Assembly: GCF_014195685.1 (NCBI RefSeq)
Contig: NZ_JACICF010000002.1
Span: forward strand, 1-64,000
DNA length: 64,000 nucleotides
Direction of reading: 5' to 3'
From: Sphingomicrobium lutaoense
GTDB lineage: Bacteria > Pseudomonadota > Alphaproteobacteria > Sphingomonadales > Sphingomonadaceae
A program made the position numbers and the translations under genes. The notes under the pieces were generated by a model. It was not told the origin of the DNA, ran no database searches, and was given only the letters and a program-made list of their open reading frames with translations. This document shows, piece after piece, positions 40,885-46,090 of the stretch. How positions within the stretch are numbered: the stretch's first letter is position 1; each line of letters starts with the position of its first letter.

Positions 40885-41559
40885 TTAGCGCGCCCGGGCC
40901 TGCCAGCCATTGTCGCGCGCTGCCCGTTCGGCGTCCGCATCGAAAGCTTCGCCTTCGATGAGGCCATCGACGAGTGCGCCGAGACGCGGATCGGGACCCG
41001 AGGCCATGCGATAGTCGCCGCTATCTTCGCCTTCCCTCGCGAACATGCCTTCGAGCGCCCAGTCGCCTCCCTCGTGGCAGGCAACCCCGCTGGCGGCCGG
41101 AGCCTCGAAGCTGCGGCAGGTGCGGCCGTCGCGGTCGTGGAAAGTCAGGCCGATGCGCACATCGCCGTCGGGAAGGGACGCCAGCTTCGTGTCGAGCGCT
41201 TCGTCAAGCGAGGCTGCAGCGATCATGCGGCCATCCTGTTCGACCGCGATCGCCCCCTCGCCGCCCTGCCCCAACTGCAGGCCGAGAAGCACCGCCAGCG
41301 CGAGGCTCGCGGCAACCGCGCCGCCGCGCAGCCAGCCGCGATTGTCATTGGCGGCGACGGGCGGCTTCTTCCGAAGGGGTGGCGGTGTGGCTTCCATCAG
41401 CGGAGCGAAGGCGGTGCGCAGATTGGCGCCCAACGCGCGATGATCGGCCGCGAGCGCCTGCAATTCGGGATCGGCGGCAACCCTTGCGGCCACCCTCCGG
41501 GCGGTCTCGCCGTCCAATTCGCCATCAAGCCAGGCGAAAAATTCCTCTTCCTCAGTCAT
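40885..41559 (-). CDS. anti-sigma factor for the adjacent ECF sigma factor
   Basis: About 224 residues. An N-terminal cytoplasmic anti-sigma domain (MTEEEEFFAWLDGELDGETA ... DPELQALAADHRALGANLR) without the HxxxCxxC zinc motif, one transmembrane helix (VAASLALAVLLGLQLGQ) and a periplasmic part with two cysteines (TCRSFEAP, VACHEGGD). ATG at 41559 overlaps the sigma stop (ATGACTGA), so the two are translated together. The C-terminal cysteines may sense oxidation or envelope damage (inference). Confidence 0.8.
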   Translation of the reverse strand: MTEEEEFFAWLDGELDGETARRVAARVAADPELQALAADHRALGANLRTAFAPLMEATPPPLRKKPPVAANDNRGWLRGGAVAASLALAVLLGLQLGQGGEGAIAVEQDGRMIAAASLDEALDTKLASLPDGDVRIGLTFHDRDGRTCRSFEAPAASGVACHEGGDWALEGMFAREGEDSGDYRMASGPDPRLGALVDGLIEGEAFDADAERAARDNGWQARAR

Positions 41560-42061
41560 CGTCTTTCTCACCCAGCAATTCCATGAGCGCCTTGCGCCCG
41601 CGCACGAGGCGGCTCGACACCGTGCCGATCGGCAGGTCGAGCAGTTCGGCGGTTTCGCGGTAGCCCATCCCGTCGATGAGGATGAGCGCCACCACTTCGC
41701 GTTGTTCCTCGGGCAGGTGGCCCATCGCCTCTAGCGCGGTCGAAAGATCGATCGCGGCTTCGGTCGCGGGACGCGGATCGTAGCCCACCGACTTTCCAGC
41801 CTCGGCATCGATCTCGCGGCTCGCTCGGCGCGAGGAAGCCCGCACCGTGTCGATCCACAGGTTGCGCGTCAGCCGGAACATCCAGCTGTCGAAGCGCGTG
41901 CCCGGCTCGAACCGGTCGCTCTTGCGCATCGCCCTTTCGCAGGCGCGCTGCACCAAATCGTCGGCATCGGCGGCCTGCGACGTCAGCCCGTAGGCGAATC
42001 GGCGCAACCTCGGGTAAACCTCGGTGAGTGCGGCTTCGAAATCGGCGTGCAACAGATTCAT
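41552..42061 (-). CDS. ECF RNA polymerase sigma factor
   Basis: 169 residues with sigma region 2 (EVYPRLRRFAYGLTSQAADA, DDLVQRACERAMRKSDRF, SWMFRLTRNLWIDTVR) and region 4 (LPEEQREVVALILIDGMGYR, ETAELLDLPIGTVSSRLVRG). The promoter at 42073-42106 is shared back-to-back with the subtilase gene, so autoregulation is likely. First gene of the sigma/anti-sigma operon. Confidence 0.93.
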   Translation of the reverse strand: MNLLHADFEAALTEVYPRLRRFAYGLTSQAADADDLVQRACERAMRKSDRFEPGTRFDSWMFRLTRNLWIDTVRASSRRASREIDAEAGKSVGYDPRPATEAAIDLSTALEAMGHLPEEQREVVALILIDGMGYRETAELLDLPIGTVSSRLVRGRKALMELLGEKDDD

Positions 42062-42072
42062 CGTCCTTCATG

Positions 42073-42106
42073 GGGATGAAACGTCAGGCGGCTGTCGTTT
42101 CATCCC
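42073..42106. promoter_or_regulatory. overlapping divergent ECF-type promoters forming a 10-bp dyad
   Basis: GGGATGAAAC (42073-42082) and GTTTCATCCC (42097-42106) are perfect inverted repeats with a 14-base spacer. On each strand it reads GGATG-N17-CGTT, the spacing of an ECF -35/-10 pair. It therefore offers a promoter for the sigma gene (minus) and for the subtilase (plus) on the same DNA. The plus-strand version is 25/28 identical to the element before the gene at 43563. Confidence 0.65.
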
Positions 42107-42133: not shown

Positions 42134-43471
42134 ATGTCCAGACGCCGCCTTTTTCTCTTCGCATCGCTTTGCGCCGCGCTGACGCTTCCTTCGTCGGCAC
42201 AGCTGATACCCGACCTGGGTTCGGTGACCGGCCCGGTGAAGGGCGTGTTGCCGCCCTTGCCGACGCGCGGAGTGCCGGTGGTCGATCAATTGCTCGGACA
42301 GGAAGAGGCCGCGCAAGAACTGGTCACGCCTTCACTCGACCGGCTGGGATCGAGCGGGCTTTCGGGCGAACTGTCAGGCGACACGCTCAAGAAGCTGCGC
42401 CGCGAACGTCTCGACCGGCTGGTTCGCGAGCATCGCGACGAACTGGAGGAGGATCGCGACGATCATCCCGTGCGACGCGGCGAACTGCTGCTGGTCGATC
42501 CCGATGCGGCGGGCCTTGCTGCCGCCACTGCCGCCGGCTTCACGCCGATCGAGGATCGAGAGCTCGAAGGCCTCGGCATCCGCATCGTGCGCGTTTCGGT
42601 GCCCGACAAGGCGGGCAACGTCCGCTCGGCGATCAAGCGGCTGCGCAAAATCGCGCCGGGCCTGACAGTCGATTACAACCATGTCTTCGAACCCGCCGGG
42701 GGCGCACTGGCCAGTTCGGCGGCGACCGTGCTTCAGGGAGGCGCTTCGGGACGCGGTGGATCGACCGTCGCGATCATCGATGGCGGCGTCGCAGCGCATC
42801 CCTCGCTGTCGGGCGCGTCGGTCCGCCAGCGTGCCTTTTCGGGCAAGGCCGTGGCGACCGGGCATGGCACCGCGGTCGCTTCGCTGCTGGTCGGCCACCA
42901 GGGCGCTTTCCATGGCGCGGCGCGCGGCGCGAACCTGCTGGTCGGCGATGTCTATGGCGGCAATCCTGCCGCCGGATCGGCCACCGCGATCGCCAGCGCA
43001 ATCGGCTGGGCGGTCTCCCAAGGCGCGCATGTGGTGAACATCTCGCTCGTCGGGCCGCCCAATGCGCTGATCGAGCGCGCGGTGCGACGCGCCCGCGCCA
43101 AGGGAGCGCATATCGTTGCTGCGGTAGGCAATAACGGCCCCGCCGCGCCTGCTCCCTATCCCGCGAGCTATCAAGGCGTGCTCGCCATCACCGGGGTCGA
43201 TGCCAAGGGACGCGCCCTGCGCGAAGCGGGGCGCAGCCCCAATCTCGCCTTTGCCGCGCCCGGCGCCGATATGGCGGCCGCGCTGATGGGCAAGGGCTAT
43301 GGCACCGTGCGTGGCACCAGCTTTGCCGCGCCGCTCGCCAGCGCGCGTCTCCTGCGCGCGGGATCGCCCGCCGCGCTCGAGAAGGAAGCGGTCAAGGGCA
43401 AGGGCCGCGTGGGCAAGGGAATTGTCTGCGTCACTTGCCGGATCGACCCGCGAAAGGTCGGAGCGAAATAA
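42134..43471 (+). CDS. secreted S8 (subtilisin-like) serine peptidase
   Basis: 445 residues. Signal peptide MSRRRLFLFASLCAALTLPS SA-Q, a prodomain-like region (about residues 60-190, RGELLLVDPDAAGLAAATAA), then the S8 domain with catalytic Asp216 (AIIDGGV), His244 (GHGTAVASL), oxyanion Asn333 (VGNNGP) and Ser396 (GTSFAAPLAS). C-terminal VCVTCR gives a CxxC-like cysteine pair. It is divergent from the sigma/anti-sigma operon and likely belongs to its regulon. It might act on envelope targets or the anti-sigma factor (inference). Confidence 0.9.
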   Translation: MSRRRLFLFASLCAALTLPSSAQLIPDLGSVTGPVKGVLPPLPTRGVPVVDQLLGQEEAAQELVTPSLDRLGSSGLSGELSGDTLKKLRRERLDRLVREHRDELEEDRDDHPVRRGELLLVDPDAAGLAAATAAGFTPIEDRELEGLGIRIVRVSVPDKAGNVRSAIKRLRKIAPGLTVDYNHVFEPAGGALASSAATVLQGGASGRGGSTVAIIDGGVAAHPSLSGASVRQRAFSGKAVATGHGTAVASLLVGHQGAFHGAARGANLLVGDVYGGNPAAGSATAIASAIGWAVSQGAHVVNISLVGPPNALIERAVRRARAKGAHIVAAVGNNGPAAPAPYPASYQGVLAITGVDAKGRALREAGRSPNLAFAAPGADMAAALMGKGYGTVRGTSFAAPLASARLLRAGSPAALEKEAVKGKGRVGKGIVCVTCRIDPRKVGAK

Positions 43472-43485
43472 TTTTCATGGATGGC

Positions 43486-43513
43486 GGGATGAAGCGTCCG
43501 CCGGCTGTCGTTT
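43486..43513 (+). promoter_or_regulatory. ECF-type promoter element before the Gly/Ala/Ser-rich secreted protein gene
   Basis: GGGATGAAGC, a 14-base spacer (GTCCGCCGGCTGTC) and GTTT, identical at 25 of 28 positions to the plus-strand element at 42073-42100, with the same GGATG-N17-CGTT geometry. The right arm of the dyad is missing here, as expected of a one-sided promoter. Confidence 0.65.
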
Positions 43514-43562: not shown

Positions 43563-44339
43563 ATGAAGACGCACCTCATCGCACTGGTCATGGCCAGCAC
43601 CGCCACCCTCGCCGCGACCCCCGCTTCGGCGCAGCTGGTCGGCAATCTCGGCGGAACCATCAACAATACCGTCGGCGGCGCCGTGAACGGCACCGTAGGC
43701 GGCGTGACCCGCGGCACCCTTTCGGGCCAGGGCGGGCTTGTCGGCGGGATCGACAGCCGCGGCGCCCTGTCGGCGGCCGATGCCGTGACCAGCAGCGTCT
43801 CGGGCGCGGTGTCGGGCAATGCCTCGGGTTCGGCCGACGGCCGTGTCGATGCACGCGGCGGTTCGGCTTCGGGCAATGCCGGTCTTGCCGGCACGGTCGA
43901 TGCGATCGCCGGTGGCGCCACGTCGGTTGCGGGCATGAATGGCAGCGGGCAGGCCTCGGGCCGTGCCTCGACCAGCAAGAATGCCGGCGTCAGCGTCAGC
44001 ACGATGGGCAGCGATGCCCTCGGCAGCGCCGCCGGTTCGGCGCTGTCGGGCGCAGCGGGTTCAGCCGCTGCCGCACAGGGTGAAGCGCGCGGGCGCGCCG
44101 AAGGCGGCGCCGATGCTGCTGGCAACGCCCTGATCGCCGCGCGCCGCGAAACCGGCGCCGTTGCCGCAACCGCCCGCCAGTCGGCAAGCGGACGCGCGCA
44201 GGGCGCGGCCAGCGGCGCGGGTTCGCTCGCATCGCAGGCCAATGGTGCGAGCCTTCCGGTGTCGGGTAGCCTCGGCGCGCAGGGTTCGGGCCATGGTTCG
44301 GCCCATGCCCGCGCCGAAGCGGACGAAGAACGCCGCTAA
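43563..44339 (+). CDS. secreted Gly/Ala/Ser-rich low-complexity protein
   Basis: 258 residues with signal peptide MKTHLIALVMASTATLAATP ASA. The mature part is almost entirely Gly, Ala, Ser, Asn, Asp, Val and Arg, first with NLGGTINNTVGGAVNGTVGG -like repeats, then AGSAGSAAAAQGEARGRAEG -type segments with spaced Arg/Glu. No fold is recognisable. AAGGAG 6-7 bases upstream fixes the start. It follows the second ECF element, so it is likely a structural or surface output of the sigma factor. Confidence 0.8.
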   Translation: MKTHLIALVMASTATLAATPASAQLVGNLGGTINNTVGGAVNGTVGGVTRGTLSGQGGLVGGIDSRGALSAADAVTSSVSGAVSGNASGSADGRVDARGGSASGNAGLAGTVDAIAGGATSVAGMNGSGQASGRASTSKNAGVSVSTMGSDALGSAAGSALSGAAGSAAAAQGEARGRAEGGADAAGNALIAARRETGAVAATARQSASGRAQGAASGAGSLASQANGASLPVSGSLGAQGSGHGSAHARAEADEERR

Positions 44340-44365
44340 AACTTTCCTTGCCGCAAAAAAAGGAA

Positions 44366-44395
44366 GGGCCCGCCGATCGGCGGGCCCTTTTGTTT
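44366..44395 (+). terminator. intrinsic terminator after the Gly/Ala/Ser-rich gene
   Basis: A 22-base perfect palindrome (44366-44387; GGGCCCGCCGA in each arm, read in opposite directions) is followed by TTTTGTTTG. It separates this gene from the convergent etfA. Confidence 0.88.
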
Positions 44396-44412: not shown

Positions 44413-45342
44413 CTAGAGTTTTTCGGTCAGTTCGGGCACCGCCTTGAAGAGGTCCGCGACGAGGCCGATGTCGGCGACCTGGAAAATGGGCGCTTCCTCG
44501 TCCTTGTTGATCGCGATGATCGTCTTGCTGTCTTTCATCCCGGCAAGATGCTGGATCGCGCCCGAGATGCCGATCGCGATATAGACTTCGGGAGCAACGA
44601 TCTTGCCGGTCTGGCCGACCTGATAGTCGTTGGGGGCATAGCCCGCATCGACCGCCGCGCGGCTGGCGCCCACCGCGGCATTGAGCTTGTCGGCGAGCGG
44701 GTCGAGCAGCTTGTGGAAATCTTCTTCCGAACCGAAGGCACGGCCACCCGAAACGATCACGCCCGCGCTGGTCAGCTCGGGACGGTCTCCTTCGGACAGT
44801 TCGGCTCCGACGAAGCTCGACTTGCCGCCGGACGAGCCCGCGTCGATCGTTTCCACCTCGGCGCTGCCGCCTTGCGCCGACGCCTTGTCGAAGGCGGTGC
44901 CGCGAACGGTGATCACCTTCTTGGCATCGCTCGACTTCACCCTGGCGATGGCATTGCCGGCATAGATGGGCCGAGTGAAGGTATCTTCGCCTTCGACCGA
45001 GATGATGTCGGAAATCTGCATCACGTCGAGCTTGGCGGCGACGCGCGGCGCGACATTCTTGCCCGTGGTAGTGGCGGGCGCGAGGAAAGCGTCATGATGA
45101 CCCATCTGGTCGATGATGATCGGCGCGACATCCTCGGCCAGCTGATGTTCGAGATGCGCGGCGTCGGCGACATGCACCTTGCCCACGCCATCGATCGCGG
45201 CGGCGGCCTTGGCGATGTCGCCCACATTGGAGCCCGCGACGAGCAGATGGATTTCGCCCAATGCCTTGGCGGCGGTCACGGTCGAAAGGGTGGCATCCTT
45301 GATGGCGCTGCCGTCATGTTCGACGAGAACGAGCGTTTTCAT
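44413..45342 (-). CDS. etfA: electron transfer flavoprotein subunit alpha
   Basis: 309 residues: [20 protein letters not shown] at the start and the FAD-binding C-terminal domain with [70 protein letters not shown]. Carries electrons from acyl-CoA dehydrogenases to ETF-QO. One base separates it from etfB. Confidence 0.97.
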
Positions 45343-45343
45343 G

Positions 45344-46090
45344 TCAGGCAACTCCCATGTCTTTGAGCTTGGCGACGAGGTCGTCGACCGAATCCACCTT
45401 GATCCCGGCTTCGCGCTTGGGCGGCTCGGTCACTTCGAGCGTCTCGAGACGCGGCGCGATGTCCACGCCATAATCCTCGGGGGTCTTGGTCGCGAGCGGC
45501 TTGGACTTGGCCTTCATGATGTTGGGAAGGCTCGGATAGCGCGGCTCGTTGAGGCGAAGATCGGTGGTGATCACCGCGGGGGTAGCGAGTTTTACCGTTT
45601 CGAGGCCGCCATCGACTTCACGGGTCACGCCGACCCTGTCGCCATCCACTTCGACCTTCGATGCGAAGGTGCCCTGGGGCCAGTCGAGCAAGGCGGCGAG
45701 CATCTGGCCGGTCTGGTTCGAATCGTCGTCGATCGCCTGCTTGCCCAGGATGAAGAGATCGGGCTGTTCTTCCTCGGCGACCTTCGCAAGCAGCTTGGCG
45801 ACGCCGAGCGGTTCGACCGTTTCGTCGGTCTGGATGTGGATGGCGCGGTCGGCGCCGATCGCGATCGCGGTACGCAGCGTTTCCTGCGCCTTGGCCGGGC
45901 CGATCGAGACCGCGACGACTTCGGTCGCGACGCCCTTTTCCTTGAGCCGGACGGCTTCCTCGACGGCGATCTCGTCGAAGGGGTTCATCGACATCTTCAC
46001 ATTCTGGAGATCGACACCGCTGCCGTCCATCTTGACGCGCGGTTTCACATTATAATCGATCACCCGTTTCACGGCGACGAGCAGTTTCAT
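45344..46090 (-). CDS. etfB: electron transfer flavoprotein subunit beta
   Basis: 248 residues: [60 protein letters not shown], with [12 protein letters not shown] near the C-terminus. Beta subunit of the heterodimer with EtfA, AMP-binding. First of the etfB-etfA unit. Confidence 0.97.

Follow-up and report, generated by a model that had tools for sequence, protein, structure and literature searches.

A perfect dyad between divergent ECF sigma factor and S8 subtilase genes as a very probable pair of interlocked, opposite promoters

The 72-bp intergene between a gene for an ECF sigma factor (minus strand) and a gene for an S8 subtilase (plus strand) is occupied for about half of its length by a dyad, GGGATGAAAC-N14-GTTTCATCCC, at positions 42073-42106 of the 64-kb stretch of DNA analyzed here (the window). 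We consider it very likely that this dyad is a symmetric bidirectional promoter of the adjoining ECF sigma factor, composed of two interlocked promoters that face in opposite directions. A first-pass annotation of the window had claimed two divergent ECF promoters on the same DNA, and that claim is strongly supported by comparison, through the conservation of the dyad, one-way copies, position-specific constraint and relatives with back-to-back promoters. What appears to be new here is the interlocked form of the divergent overlapping promoter; the ECF26 sigma/serine-protease arrangement was already known. No earlier description of the interlocked element was found in the open-access literature searched.

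The full sequence of 42073-42106, GGGATGAAACGTCAGGCGGCTGTCGTTTCATCCC, is a perfect 10-bp inverted repeat around a 14-bp center. GGGATGAAAC at 42073-42082 (plus strand) has its exact reverse complement at 42097-42106, across a gap of 14 bp, which confirms both arms as they had been described earlier. Perfect 10-bp inverted repeats whose arms are at most 30 bp apart number 12 in the 64-kb window versus 3-14 in Markov shuffles; inside the 72-bp intergene, by contrast, a repeat of the same type is rare, having occurred in 24 of 20,000 shuffles. Because such a dyad is ordinary in 64 kb, the case for it rests on comparison and conservation.

The ECF sigma factor presumed to act on the dyad (41552-42061, minus strand; 169 aa; Pfam Sigma70_r2 and Sigma70_r4_2) is RpoE6/ECF26-like, being 47.5% identical (93% coverage) to the S. 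meliloti/S. medicae plasmid sigma factor whose gene adjoins an S8 gene. Its ORF is overlapped by 20 bp by that of a putative membrane anti-sigma factor (40885-41571, minus strand), which has a weak NCBIfam anti-sigmaE match (E 5e-4), relatives annotated as anti-sigma factors and one hydrophobic stretch, judged by eye from the sequence. Divergent from the sigma gene lies the gene for the S8 subtilase (42134-43471, plus strand), a protein of 445 aa that is likely secreted given its signal-peptide-like N terminus (Pfam Peptidase_S8, 1e-23). A third predicted target (43563-44339, plus strand) encodes a secreted, low-complexity Gly/Ala-rich protein of 258 aa containing ..AQLVGNLGG.., for which there was no match in Pfam or NCBIfam.

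The register of the proposed promoters was taken from a mapped system. The serine protease gene SMa0142 of S. meliloti, which is divergent from rpoE6, is under positive control of RpoE6 via the mapped promoter GGGAATAGACCGACGACTCAGCCGTTCTGACACAa, of the GGAATA..CGTT type, and the arrangement of a sigma gene with a divergent serine protease gene is widely conserved among ECF26 (PMC6180224). The corresponding intergene of another S. meliloti strain matches the published SMa0142 promoter almost base for base. We aligned GGGATGAA of the window with GGGAAT, and CGTT with CGTT, of the SMa0142 promoter. In this register, which is that of the one-way copies and of the mapped ECF26 promoters (PMC6180224), the predicted -35 of the subtilase promoter is GGATGAA at 42074-42080 and its -10 is CGTT at 42096-42099 (both plus strand), CGTT being invariant in the dyads and, by search design, in 47 one-way sites. 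From symmetry and conservation, the sigma promoter would have its -35, likewise GGATGAA, at 42099-42105 (minus strand). Its -10 would be CGTT on the minus strand at 42080-42083, where an A at 42081 and a G at 42083 are fixed in dyads and free in one-way copies. Transcription is predicted to start 12 nt beyond the C of CGTT, at ~42108 (plus strand) and ~42071 (minus strand), each +/-1, and these homology-based starts are ~37 bp apart. Start codons lie close to the dyad on either side in nearly all of the alphaproteobacterial sites listed, leaving short leaders. The overlap of one promoter's -35 with the other's -10, also part of the first-pass annotation, is real but small, in that base pair 42080 is the one base pair common to the subtilase -35 and the sigma-promoter -10; it becomes larger once flanking conserved bases are included, and the promoters as wholes are superimposed.

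Conservation of the dyad was followed from the genus outward. Sigma orthologues of the same genus, collected by protein, had kept both arms and diverged in the spacer. With two mismatches allowed, a scan of the genus found the element in 25 of 71 genomes (reversed control pattern, 0 matches), with one element per genome save for a single genome with two. A scan of the family found it in 85 of 398 genomes, which belonged to 34 of 96 genera (control, 0 matches). In an exact scan of species-level genomes, almost all of the matches listed were from Sphingomonadales and Caulobacterales, and nearly all of the alphaproteobacterial sites listed had a sigma gene on one flank and an S8 gene on the other. 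Matches in Paenibacillus, Bifidobacterium, a cyanobacterium and Chloroflexi adjoined neither and fit the background expected by chance. A class-wide protease search returned many S8 relatives that lack an adjoining sigma gene, a result that is uninformative on the promoter.

Distinct sigma/subtilase intergenes that contain GGATGAAACG-N12-CGTTTCATCC numbered 174 and came from Sphingomonadales and Caulobacterales. The logo of these 174 oriented sites has nearly invariant arms and a spacer near background, and its outer G and C are conserved at 100%, though outside the search pattern. Most of the 174 sites were gathered with the dyad pattern, and therefore conservation inside the pattern derives in part from selection. 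The fair test is a protein-selected set, for which S8 relatives were drawn from 200 genomes of the family and their upstream regions were scored with the spacing left free (8-17 bp). In this sample the dyad was present in 50 automatically scored divergent sigma-S8 pairs, with a spacer of 12 in 50/50, and two further dyads (G130 and G123) were added by hand, a truncated S8 start having displaced the search window. The dyad was thus present in 52 of 56 divergent pairs, with the 12-bp spacer throughout, and the remaining four had GGAATA-type promoters instead.

Three lines of evidence support the two-promoter reading beyond conservation itself. The first is that one-way copies, which have GGATGAA and CGTT at the dyad spacing but no second arm, lie ahead of a third gene, whose product is a secreted protein; in the window this copy (GGGATGAAGC-N13-CGTT) lies at 43486-43512 (plus strand). 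The one-way pattern had 34 matches versus 0 for the reversed control, a few of the 34 being dyad variants, and a looser rule with dyads excluded yielded 47 one-way sites. The second is that dyad bases unneeded by a one-way -35 are fixed where the opposite CGTT needs them. Within the genus, 15 of 18 one-way copies had G at position 6 (42081), whereas the 50 dyad arms all had A there (p 4e-15). At position 8 (42083), G was present in 21 of 47 one-way copies and in every one of the 52 unbiased dyads (p 2e-11). The two positions belong to the opposite-strand -10, and another base at either of them would abolish its CGTT. The genome of the window, searched with flexible spacing and no mismatch, had the three cluster promoters, two other sites on contig 1 and nothing else. 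These few matches make a small local regulon likely for this sigma factor, with weaker targets possible.

The third line comes from relatives outside the dyad clade, in which the same gene pair carries two separate, back-to-back GGAATA..CGTT promoters, one per gene. Such promoters were present in nine loci, with -35 starts 8-48 bp apart, and the outgroup intergenes as a set contained 25 motif matches versus 0.4 in shuffles and 0 for the reversed motif. Several outgroup loci had a single motif only. A tenth locus, on the Agrobacterium plasmid pAt1D1460 (intergene 2317-2467), has two GGAAT-type motifs in overlapping order, each facing one gene, and its two -10s nearly coincide.

The sigma factors with interlocked promoters group as a single clade, which has a support of 93/83 and appears in 92% of bootstrap trees. 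The arrangement had been called unusual, which holds in general, but within this sigma clade it is standard. In the recognition helix of region 4.2, the interlocked clade has T, N or S at residue 149, where 16 of 16 outgroup sigma factors have M, and residue 155 differs likewise (A in the outgroup, G in the clade). Residue 149 is a candidate specificity switch. Adjoining the interlocked clade in the sigma tree is the lineage of locus L286, which is not interlocked. This sister lineage (L286/L327 and L328-L336) has the divergent sigma-S8 pair, T149 and mostly GGAAGAA..CGTT sigma promoters, and the dyad was absent from its examined sigma-S8 intergenes; at L286, GATGAA-type promoters stand back to back, 20 bp apart. 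It is a possible evolutionary intermediate. This pattern, drawn from few deep branches, suggests that -35 recognition changed first and that the promoters became interlocked later.

We propose that each arm of the dyad is double-purposed: its GGATGAA would serve as the -35 for transcription that runs over the spacer, and its inner half, read in reverse complement as CGTT, would serve as the -10 of the opposite promoter. Once the anti-sigma factor lets go of the sigma factor, sigma-RNA polymerase would load on the 34 bp in either orientation, the leftward start (~42071) leading to sigma and anti-sigma and the rightward start (~42108) to the subtilase. Because the promoters overlie each other, polymerase would bind only one way at a time, and mutual exclusion of the two loading orientations would follow from the geometry. 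As the core elements are identical both ways, balanced co-expression is expected; expression of regulator and protease would be coupled and near-balanced, with competition relevant only near saturation. The separate one-way copy at 43486 would drive the third secreted protein, free of this exclusion. We infer from sequence and comparison that both starts are used, that this sigma factor recognizes the promoters, and that the orientations exclude each other in vivo, with whatever effect this may have.

The first-pass annotation had also claimed competition between sigma autoregulation and subtilase expression as a built-in trade-off; this part is a possibility that would depend on occupancy, and the annotation is supported in part. 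In an exclusion model, the loss for each direction is 8% when occupancy is low (x = 0.1) and does not exceed one half when the site is saturated. We give roughly an even chance to the explanation that the interlocked promoters serve compaction and co-regulation only, competition having no regulatory effect because occupancy never comes near saturation. This is a sub-case of the two-promoter explanation and differs from it in effect alone. The at most two-fold cost of exclusion speaks for it, as does the behavior of E. coli bidirectional promoters, whose basal activity is too low for competition, which arises upon strong activation (PMC12825309). Autoregulation can, however, strongly activate ECF promoters, and positive autoregulation could reach the competition regime. 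The compaction explanation must also account for an interlock that is of single origin and strictly kept, with an exact 12-bp spacer across much sequence divergence; its retention could just be hard to reverse, yet back-to-back versions exist in the same family, and so the interlock may be selected.

A tentative, somewhat less probable possibility is that autoregulation and output on one site make a positive loop that its own output holds back. Every transcription of the protease gene would then cost one round of sigma synthesis, which would set the ratio of the two and cap or quiet the response. Such a device would have evolved once, after the switch from GGAATA to GGATGAA made an arm legible both as a -35 and as a reversed -10.

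Explanations that do away with one or both promoters fare far worse. It is very unlikely that a single ECF promoter, for either the subtilase or the sigma gene, is real, the symmetry is incidental and the other gene is served from elsewhere. In S. meliloti the ECF-type mapped promoter is on the protease side only, rpoE6's own mapped promoter having been judged not ECF-like (PMC6180224), and therefore autoregulation on the sigma side via a motif of this kind does not extend to every member of the wider group; the outgroup loci with just one motif also fit a single promoter. In the dyads, however, the arms are equally conserved, the opposite-strand -10s are both held fixed, and start codons are near on both sides. 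Among the 174 sites, the most frequent -35 variant, GATTAAAC, was present 22 times on the subtilase side and 17 times on the sigma side, and this like frequency indicates that neither direction is favored.

Perfect symmetry, fixed arm spacing and flanking divergent genes would equally be typical of an operator for a separate dimeric regulator. That the dyad is such an operator and not a promoter pair is nevertheless highly improbable, and we reject it on the strength of the one-way copies, which lack the second arm that a dimeric operator would need. The arms also fit the mapped ECF26 promoters, relatives carry two discrete ECF promoters toward the same genes, and in the annotated relatives seen there was no conserved regulator gene at the locus besides those for sigma and anti-sigma. 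A symmetric operator for a dimeric regulator could exist alongside the promoter pair. An RNA hairpin, a terminator or a CRISPR-repeat fragment, to which an inverted repeat with a 14-nt loop might point, can be dismissed almost entirely: the predicted starts lie outside the dyad, which these promoters would leave untranscribed, no T-run follows it, the sequence read contains no repeat array, and the spacer is unconserved in an element tied to sigma/S8 context in alphaproteobacteria.

Classical divergent overlapping promoters consist of two core promoters that overlap on opposite strands. The element described here differs from them in its perfect symmetry, its single alternative sigma factor and a geometry conserved across two orders. 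With the bidirectional promoters that Warman, Grainger and colleagues studied in E. coli and other prokaryotes it would share a symmetry that lets RNA polymerase engage in two exclusive orientations (PMC12825309). Those promoters have a common -10, with a typical distance between starts of 18, 10 or 23 bp, and are described for the housekeeping sigma factor (PMC12825309). In the window, by contrast, an arm is common to one -35 and the other -10, the predicted starts are ~37 bp apart, and the -10s are not shared but flank the spacer, one on each side with 12 bp between them, which places the dyad outside the common -10 class. In addition, both directions would use one dedicated ECF sigma factor that is itself a product. 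The ECF26 system RpoE6-EcfR6/SMa0142 resembles the window locus in having a sigma factor ~47% identical, a divergent S8 protease, a CGTT-type -10 and an anti-sigma gene downstream (putative in the window). Its -35, however, is GGAATA and that of the window GGATGAA, and its protease promoter is one-way with no dyad, whereas the window promoters are merged in a symmetric element.

The dyad would be a minimal natural case, strictly conserved, in which two promoters of one alternative sigma factor occupy the same bases, and the non-interlocked version in other alphaproteobacteria provides a control. With it one can test directly whether overlapping promoters are under selection to couple or limit positive autoregulation, a question that bidirectional promoters in general also raise. 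The -35 switch and the change of a recognition-helix residue offer a concrete case of sigma-promoter co-evolution, and the dyad might find use in gene circuits as a compact two-way part.

Several individual sites deserve mention. The genus genome with two elements (G087; C1:1954851 and C1:2671546) has them at separate places with different spacers, and judged from these copies the interlocked system can be duplicated. An interlocked element of Sphingomonas hankookensis is plasmid-borne. A MAG labelled Stagnimonas, a gammaproteobacterium, contains the dyad together with a sphingomonad-like sigma factor, which is probably binning contamination. Homologues of the Gly/Ala-rich protein that start with ..AQLLGG.. 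sit behind one-way copies in Sphingomonadaceae and Caulobacteraceae. Just 3' of the secreted-protein gene in the window, at 44362-44395, a strong GC-rich hairpin is followed by a T-run, apparently a terminator between this gene and a convergent gene pair (44413-46090) that resembles etfAB.
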